38,487 bases of DNA, from contig CASFMA010000073.1 of the NCBI GenBank assembly GCA_949295675.1, positions 1-38,487 of the forward strand, written 5' to 3'. Shown here piece by piece: positions 31,127 through 34,266 of the stretch; position 1 is the first letter of the stretch, and every line of letters begins with the position of its first letter. The translations under genes and the position numbers were made by a program. The notes beneath the pieces were generated by a model. That model had not been told where the DNA came from, made no database searches, and saw only the letters and a list, made by a program, of their open reading frames with translations. Origin of the DNA: an uncultured Spirochaetales bacterium. Lineage in GTDB: Bacteria; Spirochaetota; Spirochaetia; Sphaerochaetales; Sphaerochaetaceae.

Positions 31127-31804
31127 CTAAAACTGGAATTTCCGGAGATTGTTATAATAGTTGCGGATGAAAATCCTTCGTGTGCCGAAGAAATCAACAA
31201 CAGATTTTGTTTCAAGGCCACGATCCCATTTCTCTTTTGCGAATTCGAGTGTACAGATGAAATCGGCAACCTGCAGCAGTTTATAATTATCCTGAAACGC
31301 AAGCTTCATCTCGGTGTTGGTGAATATCTCAGCAAATGTAGAATTCAAAAGCAAGGAGACCTCTCTTTGTCCTCGATCGTAGAAAAGACGGATCTTGTCG
31401 AACTGCTGGAAATAACTGAGGTTTGCGAGGATAAAACTATTGAAAGAGGAAACCATCTTGGCAATAAATGCACTGTAAGAACTACTCTGCTTTTTATCGA
31501 ACATGAATGCTTTATACCTAATTGGCAGTCGTTGAATGAAAGAAGCTGTTGCGGTAAACAACGATTTCCTTTCATTCTTATCCAGTTCTGCATAAGGCGG
31601 CTCTTTTCTGATCAGAGGGCTGACATGAACAGCTTTCTCGGAATTGAAACCTTTCTGGCGCTGTATTGTGTCAAATCCCTCTATAGCATCTGTGATATCA
31701 TCATCCTGATTGTGAAATACCAATGTGATACAATAGAGTGGGTCACATGTAGTACTCATATCGAAGTTGCCAGCTTCGTCAATCATTATTGAAAGAGTGC
31801 TCAT
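31127..31804 (-). CDS. DUF3800 family protein
   Basis: A 225-residue protein of the DUF3800 family, recognised by the N-terminal IMIDEAGNFD (acidic strand), the central LFYDRGQ and the C-terminal LLQVADFICTLEFAKE. The spaced Asp residues resemble an RNase H-like metal-binding nuclease core, but activity is not established. The ATG at 31804 follows GGAGG at 4 nt; an in-frame ATG five codons earlier lacks a ribosome site. Its GC content is visibly lower than its neighbours, a sign of horizontal gain. An intrinsic-terminator hairpin ends only about 14 nt before the start codon, behind a structured leader with its own promoter. DUF3800 genes are often found in mobile or defence-like settings; the role here is unknown. 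Confidence 0.82.
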   Translation of the reverse strand: MSTLSIMIDEAGNFDMSTTCDPLYCITLVFHNQDDDITDAIEGFDTIQRQKGFNSEKAVHVSPLIRKEPPYAELDKNERKSLFTATASFIQRLPIRYKAFMFDKKQSSSYSAFIAKMVSSFNSFILANLSYFQQFDKIRLFYDRGQREVSLLLNSTFAEIFTNTEMKLAFQDNYKLLQVADFICTLEFAKEKWDRGLETKSVVDFFGTRRIFIRNYYNNLRKFQF

Positions 31805-31817
31805 GCGTCCTCCATAC

Positions 31818-31846
31818 ATAAAAATTGCCGAAGGTTTACCTCCGGC
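31818..31846 (-). terminator. Intrinsic terminator/attenuator just before the DUF3800 start
   Basis: On the minus strand GCCGGAGG pairs with CCTTCGGC over eight positions (one G-U) around the loop TAAA, followed by AATTTTTA. Its end is about 14 nt from the DUF3800 ATG. It either ends transcription from the upstream direction, with read-through for DUF3800, or works as a switch. Confidence 0.7.
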
Positions 31847-31921
31847 CTCAGGTCAGGCGACTACATTTAAAGTGCCCTGTTCGGATCTTCGCACAACCGA
31901 GATTGCGCGCCTCCCCGACTT
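31818..31921 (-). ncRNA. Structured leader RNA of the DUF3800 gene
   Basis: About 100 nt between the predicted start of transcription near 31921 and the DUF3800 gene, with no open frame. On the minus strand AGGCG (31912-31908) can pair with CGCCT (31859-31855). Inside it GCGCAA (31908-31903) pairs with TTGTGC (31896-31891) around the loop TCTCGG, and that loop could pair with CCGA at 31884-31881, forming a pseudoknot. The 3' end is the terminator hairpin. As I recall, several candidate structured RNAs named DUF3800-I, -II and so on have been described upstream of DUF3800 genes; whether this is one of them needs a covariance search. Confidence 0.45.
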
Positions 31922-31927
31922 AACTAA

Positions 31928-31956
31928 AATCTAACCTGAAAAATGCTGGAAATCAA
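31928..31956 (-). promoter_or_regulatory. Promoter of the DUF3800 leader
   Basis: On the minus strand TTGATT (31956-31951), a 17-bp spacer and TAGATT (31933-31928). It lies after the GH3 stop and about 125 bp before the DUF3800 start, so the leader and gene can be transcribed apart from GH3. Confidence 0.5.
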
Positions 31957-32034
31957 GATGGTAAATTACAGAAGAATCTGGAAGGAACAAGCCTTGCCGC
32001 ATCCACAGACGGATAGCTCACTGTCCCTTCGCCA

Positions 32035-34266
32035 TCAATGGAGGCCAAAGCCCAGCTCATAGTAGTTCCCGTTGCTGTCACGGTAAGCATACGCCTTTCC
32101 ATTCTCATCCTTCAGGCTGTCTGGCATGTGCTTATCCTTCTCATAGCCGGGAACATCATTCGGGCTTATGCAGACACCATGCTTATCAACAGCGATGACT
32201 TCATCGCCGCGGGGCAGCGTTATGGGAAGTTTGCCCGTAGGCGCAAAGCGTCCGGATATCACATCAAGGACAGCAGAGGCATATGTATCAAAACCAGCTA
32301 CAAGGCAGTCAGCAAAAGGCTCAACAGCACCAACTTCCCATGCAAGCGTGATATTTATGCTCGCTATCACCTTTCCTCCGTTGGCCCTCACAGCTTCCGC
32401 GATCTTCCCTATCCTGCCGACATCAGCAAGCGTGGTCTCGGCATGGACAGTTCCTGAAGGGCGGCCTTCATCATCAACATCCGGAACCATCTTGCCATCA
32501 CAGAGATCAAGCTCAAGATAACCGGGCGTCGCACTGAAATAAGCTCCGGATGAAGGCGCAAGCATAAGAATAGCGAAGTCCGCCGCCTCATAGTCATCTG
32601 TAAGCAGCACCGACTCGCTGAGGGCAGAGCGAAGGCTGGCTGTCGCAGCTTTCGCTTTCTCCCTATCCTTTGCAAAGCATTCCGCATATACACGTTTTCC
32701 TGCCAGCTTATCCGGCGTGAGGGGAACAGTCCCATCGTTCTTCAGAAGAACGACAGATTTCCTATGAGCGTCCATTGCCATATCCCAGTCCAAAGGGTCA
32801 GCCACGATACGCTCCGCTTCTTCGGGACTGCGGAAAGGATTGTCGAACATGCCAAGAGCAAACATCTCTGCAAGAGTCCTTCCGACAGCCCTGTCTATTG
32901 CCTCATCTGTCAGGACCAGATCTTCCTTTCTGAAGCCCTCTGGGATCCTGTGAACATCATAATATCCGTTCCTTCCGCGCTCATAAGCCTCAAGCCCTGC
33001 TGAATTGTCAAACAGCCCGGAGATCAGGTCAACGCCAGCATTCACTGCAAAGGCTATGCGCTCTGGGATATCAAGCATATCAACGCCCCAGGCCATATTA
33101 TGTACGATGCCTGTATCAGAATTGATATATCCCCTGAACCCCATCCTTGTGCGGAGAAGATCATCTATGAACGGCCTGTTGTATGCAAATCCATATGGCT
33201 GCATCTCGATTGCACGGCCATCGGCATCACGCTGCAAGGCGCTCTTCGGGGAAGGTTTTGCATAGTAAGGCATTATAGAAGAGGCGTTGAGAGCCACCGC
33301 AGCCTTGAACGCTGGCAGATGATATTTCTCCAAGGATCCTTCTGTCTGATAGATATTCCACTGCCCCATCTTATAGTGCGGATCAAAGCCATTCTCCCTC
33401 GCACCTCCTCCGGGGAAATGCTTGACAGTCATCGCAACGCCATCTTCCGTCACTCCGTGAGGGCTTCCCTAGATGCGCGGTATGATATGCCGCAGTATCT
33501 CCTGGATAAGCTCAGGATCCTCACCGAACGTGCCATAGGTGCGCTGCCATCTTGGATCTGTCGCCACATCAGCCATGTACATATAGCCCTTGCGGAGCCC
33601 CGCTGCGTTCCATTCGCGCCGGATTGTCTCTGCAAAGCCGTCAGCGACAGAGATGTCGCTGCCGATTATCGCGGCAGCTATCCCCAAAGTCCCCGGATAA
33701 GTAGCGAATACTCCTCCGGCATCGTTCATGCCGAATACAATCTCACCGTTCTCATTGCGGGAATTTGAAGCGACCTCGACCGGTATGAAATGCCTGCATC
33801 CTTCTGCCACGGCCTGAAGCTGGTTAAGCCAGTCAGCAAGATCAGCTACTGAAGGATTGGCCCTGAGGATGAGATGCCTGCTGAACCATTCACGCAGAAG
33901 CGTTGTGGTCCCGGGCAGATGCTGTTCTCCGAATATCGTATGGTCTATGAACTCTGCCTCATCAAGCGTGCCTGACTCGTCAAGAACCCCTTCATGGTCC
34001 TTGAATGCCTCAAGATACCTCCCCATCCGCCAGTCAGATATGAACAGCTGCGCTACCTTCTCCTCCAAGGTAAGTTCCTTTACATATGCCGCAGCCCTTT
34101 CAGAAGGAGGCAGCCTCCAGTCATCAAAAGGCTTGAACACCCCGCTTCCATCTATATCCTTGAAATAAAGGCCATCTATCTCCAATACACGCCGGGATAC
34201 GGTGCTTATGACAGCGCCCCCATTGTTACGATATATCCTTATATTCTCACTGGCTTTCCTGGACAT
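32035..34266 (-). pseudogene. Glycoside hydrolase family 3 beta-glycosidase interrupted by an in-frame amber codon
   Basis: A GH3 enzyme of 743 codons whose frame is intact except for TAG at 33471-33469 (codon 266). The first part (34266-33472) has FGEDPELIQEIL of the TIM barrel; the second continues in the same frame with MTVKHFPGGGARENG, the catalytic-nucleophile region GYINSDTG and the second domain with SVVLLKNDGTVPL. A single CAG-to-TAG change would explain it. The GTG at 33453 could restart only without most of the barrel, and it lacks a ribosome site. TAG is an ordinary stop in this window (mtnA, HAD and DUF3800), so recoding is unlikely. The start is set by GGAAGG. It would have released glucose or xylose from plant glycans. 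Confidence 0.85.

Follow-up and report, generated by a model that had tools for sequence, protein, structure and literature searches.

The DUF3800 locus described here is, as judged from comparative analysis of its DNA, a real and conserved RNA-protein module that is type III-like by layout alone, and its RNA probably controls or partners the putative DUF3800 nuclease encoded behind it. The locus is located in a stretch of 38,487 nucleotides (hereafter, the window) from a gut spirochaete of the genus Candidatus Ornithospirochaeta, whose genome assembly is 1.77 Mb in size and incomplete. Among gut bacteria, both DUF3800 genes and the RNAs that accompany them are widespread; a literature search found no paper stating the function of either. 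This clade supplies the missing comparison: a single genus contains four RNA types, each paired with its own protein clade, and it offers intact, broken and RNA-only copies together with a confidently predicted nuclease fold. Such a clade makes the question of inhibitor versus cofactor directly testable.

The module is found on the minus strand and extends, by DNA homology (blastn against all fetched loci), from 31,127 to 31,973. In the direction of transcription it comprises a promoter (31,928 to 31,956; TTGATT at 31,956-31,951 and TAGATT at 31,933-31,928, separated by 17 nt), a DUF3800-associated RNA of about 102 nt that we call type B (31,820 to 31,921), a Shine-Dalgarno sequence GGAGG (31,809 to 31,813), and an intact DUF3800 gene of 225 amino acids (31,127 to 31,804, with the ATG at 31,804 and the stop at 31,127). 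The RNA is one unit that includes its own intrinsic terminator (31,820 to 31,846), composed of an 8-bp stem with a 4-nt loop (hairpin 31,846-31,827) and a T-tract running to 31,820; the Shine-Dalgarno sequence lies between this terminator and the ATG. The initial annotation had described promoter, terminator hairpin, T-tract, GGAGG and ATG from the window alone, and all of them are present. Gene-bearing relatives match the window by blastn inside 31,166-31,933, while RNA-only copies match inside 31,820-31,973 and end at the T-tract. The low GC content ascribed to the gene holds as well (40.3% versus 48.8% for the window, the neighbouring HAD and GH3 genes having 48.4% and 52.0%, respectively). 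In an empty-site comparison, the flanking GH3 and HAD genes were not found adjacent in the relatives, which leaves no direct readout of the insertion ends. Upstream of the module, the GH3 beta-glucosidase gene (32,035-34,266) is split by a frameshift into 32,035-33,453 and 33,469-34,266, and the same gene is one open frame of about 760-850 amino acids in four sister genomes; the split is due either to a pseudogene or to an assembly error.

The leader of about 100 nt that the initial annotation had taken to be structured corresponds to the type B RNA, which is matched by the type B model at 31,819-31,921. It was recovered in sister species at 75-88% identity, and the trimmed RNA folds better than shuffled sequences (z -2.91, with 2 of 200 shuffles as good); a longer stretch of 127 nt is not remarkable against its shuffles (z -1.24). 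The common structure, derived from an alignment of seven and later 12 copies, is formed by a 5' domain (31,881 to 31,918), in which a UCGG/CCGA helix surrounds an inner hairpin (31,909-31,890), a second predicted hairpin with the invariant arms CAGG and CCUG (31,854 to 31,879), and the terminator. Five pairs of the inner hairpin have changed on both sides with pairing retained in the 12 type B copies, the alignment of which was fitted to the model and agrees with a seven-row MAFFT alignment made beforehand. The covariation score of this hairpin is 0.212 versus 0.113 in shuffles, none of 500 scoring as high, and it does not exceed 0.034 in a control slid by one to three columns. The alignment of leaders across homologues, which had been proposed in advance as a test, found both conservation and covariation, and these alignments identify the window RNA as a conserved, covarying RNA with its own terminator. 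The pseudoknot proposed earlier fares less well: it is possible, as an alternative pairing of the CCU of the second hairpin with the AGG at 31,912-31,910, but a local hairpin competes with it and, since AGG and CCU are invariant in seven of seven copies, it shows no covariation and is unproven. Tandem repeats, of which the initial annotation had seen no clear sign either, were not found in the RNA, which is a single unit in each of the 12 type B copies.

Regarding the transcription signals, a promoter scan by itself found no promoters at the window locus, and the promoter alone is weak. Nonetheless, the spacing of the -10 box is fixed across copies: a TATATT-like box is found exactly 12 nt 5' of the RNA in 30 of 35 type A copies (see below) and eight of 12 type B copies, that is, in 38 of 47. 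A terminator-like hairpin is present within the 70 nt before the start codon in 83 of 89 DUF3800 homologues versus seven of 290 control ORFs from the same loci. The stem of the type B terminator hardly varies, and its pairing is kept in 98% of the cells of the 12-copy alignment.

One clade of DUF3800 proteins, which has 96% support in a 64-protein tree, is preceded by three RNA types, namely A (short), B (that of the window) and C. In Rfam covariance searches no family was matched by the window RNA up to E 10, nor by the type A loci; type C reached 24.8 bits with the DUF3800-XI model, below its cut-off of 37.8, and it is this sub-threshold match that ties the whole clade to XI. Outside the clade, nearly all tested homologues are accompanied by a DUF3800-XI RNA at or above the cut-off, in hosts such as Bacillota, Fibrobacterota, Actinomycetota, Treponema and others, and XI RNA also accompanies five DUF3800 proteins within the window's own genus. 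The covariance search suggested by the initial annotation was negative for the window RNA itself; relatives of the protein do carry known DUF3800 RNAs, in line with its remark that structured RNAs have been described upstream of DUF3800 genes. When the RNA type is placed on the protein tree (every row that lacked a signature of A, B or C counted as XI, including a few not called by Rfam), the four types require three changes, which is the minimum, against a mean of 13.6 after shuffling. Since the RNA type matches the protein clade and the XI genes share the genus, the RNA type tracks the protein and not the host. In this sense, the link between leader and protein claimed at the outset is upheld in the form of a conserved, covarying, terminated RNA that is inherited with the protein clade. 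These comparisons define the window RNA as a new variant, missing from Rfam, of the DUF3800-associated kind of RNA. The exact type A and type B cores gave no matches in IMG/VR, and the plasmid and phage collections contained one weak relative each.

The protein matches Pfam PF12686 (DUF3800) with 30.6 bits against a cut-off of 21, and no other Pfam family, including Abi_2 and ToxN-type families, was matched up to E 10. Its AlphaFold2 model, built with 63 sequences, has a pLDDT of 94.3, and the top PDB match of both structure programs is RNase HII (Foldseek E 5.8e-4; Z 8.3 over 161 residues, rmsd 3.9). A Z just over 8 is modest; the following rows are also RNase H-fold enzymes, with Piwi among the matches. 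An RNase H fold for DUF3800 has been reported independently (PMC10910872). Residues D9, E10, D143 and D181 are invariant across 63 homologues and, by analogy with RNase HII, would constitute the catalytic set. The confident model thus predicts an RNase HII-like fold and a putative nuclease. A sequence search of solved structures returned no convincing match, no PADLOC model matches the locus, and PHROGs provided nothing useful.

Neither this fold nor the existence of the RNA as a separate lineage that also occurs alone had been foreseen in the initial annotation. A model search of 48 genomes of the genus detected 12 type B and about 41 good type A copies, the type A model (R2) working mainly as a sequence model and the type A structure being taken from RNAalifold. 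When a sample of the class was searched as well, a further type B copy and a weak match turned up, both in a sister genus within the family; outside that family, the A and B models found nothing in the sample. After removal of duplicates, 49 A/B copies remained, the sister-genus type B copy included, and they are followed by an intact gene (12), a full-length gene with a stop or frameshift (seven), a remnant (seven), no detected gene (21) or the end of the contig (two). Conversely, wherever the DNA upstream of a homologue was read, a leader is visible. For several RNA-only copies, the match to the window runs as far as the T-tract, where homology ends sharply. Between pairs of type A loci, identity is 86-100% in the RNA versus 66-91% in the coding DNA, which indicates that within this type constraint is stronger on the RNA than on the gene. 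It could be that the RNA-only copies are remnants in decay: a few still show vestiges of the gene start, the T-tract is gone from some (L195 and L198), and those of type A have accumulated somewhat more changes than the copies before intact genes. Because of this decay, and because a search with RNA models favours well-kept RNAs and under-counts degraded ones, selection keeping the RNA-only copies is only suggested.

Several individual loci deserve a description. Genome G035 (94% complete) carries on contig C6 (L190, 5701-9725) an RNA-only type B copy, a C-like RNA and a sub-threshold XI RNA, and no DUF3800 protein is detectable in it despite these three DUF3800-class RNAs; an Abi_2 gene and a PIN/MazE pair are found near them. 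In L201 (4889-6824), three type A RNAs occur within 2 kb and an intact DUF3800 gene follows the first only. Single in-frame stops (TAA or TAG) interrupt the DUF3800 genes of L003 (codon 172), L009 (202), L010 (188) and L015 (40); relatives mostly have glutamine at these codons, which fits C-to-T decay in this small number of cases. A tRNA gene (Leu, Met, Phe or Gln) is located on the same strand within 300 nt upstream of 16 of the 49 A/B copies (L160, L164, L166-L171, L173, L178, L181, L183, L184, L196, L202 and L205), which suggests insertion at tRNA genes or co-transcription.

The reading to which we give a slight edge is that of a two-part module, in which the terminated RNA would bind the putative DUF3800 nuclease in trans and restrain it until the balance between the two is upset. 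The RNA would be transcribed from its own promoter and most transcripts would stop at the terminator; the RNA would then be in large excess, and the protein would be produced only by rare read-through. Binding of the RNA in trans would keep the nuclease inactive, and release could occur when the balance is disturbed, for instance by a phage infection that halts RNA synthesis, much as type III toxin-antitoxin and AbiF systems work. One precedent is the AbiF RNA of C. difficile, which has a closely similar layout and neutralises its protein (PMC12373285). An extension of this reading, tentative and on the whole doubtful, is that the RNA outlives the nuclease and is kept alone as a trans antidote or decoy against incoming DUF3800 modules, often with several copies in a genome.

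The nearest rival, which we consider unlikely, holds that the RNA is a required cofactor for activating or positioning the RNase H-fold protein; the pair would then be an RNA-dependent nuclease and not a toxin with its antidote. A cofactor predicts the same co-inheritance of RNA and protein and the same gene-level pattern, the fold and the presence of Piwi and RNase HII among the structural matches agree with it, and some Cas12a2 and type VI-F loci have a DUF3800 gene next to them (PMC10910872, PMC12669027). However, a cofactor would be useless in genomes that carry RNA-only copies and have no detectable DUF3800 protein (e.g., G035 and G017), and no stretch of the RNA varies as a guide would, type A being near-invariant outside its terminator. 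A spacer-guide reading was dropped because of the same lack of a variable stretch.

An improbable alternative is that the leader acts in cis only, as a riboswitch, an attenuator or an autoregulated leader that sets the level of read-through. The terminator is indeed placed directly 5' of the gene in nearly all homologues, and the RNA occupies the entire leader. Nonetheless, the terminator of 12 of the 41 type A copies has exchanged a G-C pair for A-U while the 5' helix upstream is unchanged, which in type A speaks against a conserved alternative pairing between leader and terminator. In addition, RNA copies occur without the gene, and the related XI RNA is classed by Rfam as a gene and not as a cis-regulator. 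The terminator that varies alone and the RNA-only copies thus disfavour the switch that the initial annotation had put forward as one of its options. It is very improbable that the conserved segment is mainly a site at which a small mobile cassette lands or is excised, with an incidental RNA structure. This reading draws on the scatter of the copies, their proximity to tRNA genes and the abrupt ends at the T-tract; against it stand the compensatory hairpin changes, the fixed -10 box and the kept terminator, all of which characterise a transcribed RNA, and the lack of any recombinase gene noticed alongside the cassette.

Among known systems, the module resembles the type III toxin-antitoxin systems in layout. 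These consist of an RNA antitoxin made of tandem repeats and a toxin of the ToxN, CptN or TenpN family. The module shares with ToxIN, CptIN and TenpIN the order of RNA gene, terminator and predicted nuclease gene, as the initial annotation had pointed out, but membership was rejected: the RNA is a single unit without repeats, and the protein belongs to DUF3800 only, with an RNase H fold and no ToxN-, CptN- or TenpN-type match. The AbiF RNA/Abi_2 systems, including RCd22-AbiFCd of C. difficile, also have a promoter, a terminated RNA of about 100-130 nt and then the gene; in RCd22-AbiFCd the RNA both reduces expression and neutralises the protein (PMC12373285). However, their protein family and RNA are unrelated to those of the window, and neither the abiF RNA (RF03085) nor Abi_2 was matched at the locus, so membership was likewise rejected. 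An abiF RNA (L116, 5615-5651) and a pemK RNA (L082, 3935-3989) flank DUF3800-XI loci, hinting at shared defence or toxin-antitoxin neighbourhoods. The DUF3800 RNAs themselves are reportedly described for the first time in a 2017 paper by Weinberg. Other members in Rfam (e.g., DUF3800-I and IX) are, like the window RNA, structured RNAs linked to DUF3800 genes, but they give no covariance match to it; a DUF3800-I copy lies in the flank of one relative (L049). The DUF3800-XI RNA (RF02975) is likewise a small RNA with its terminator directly before a related DUF3800 gene, and its predicted fold is similar, with a 5' hairpin, a second hairpin and a terminator; the differences are that the first helix of type B encloses one more hairpin, which covaries, and that the window protein belongs to a separate clade.
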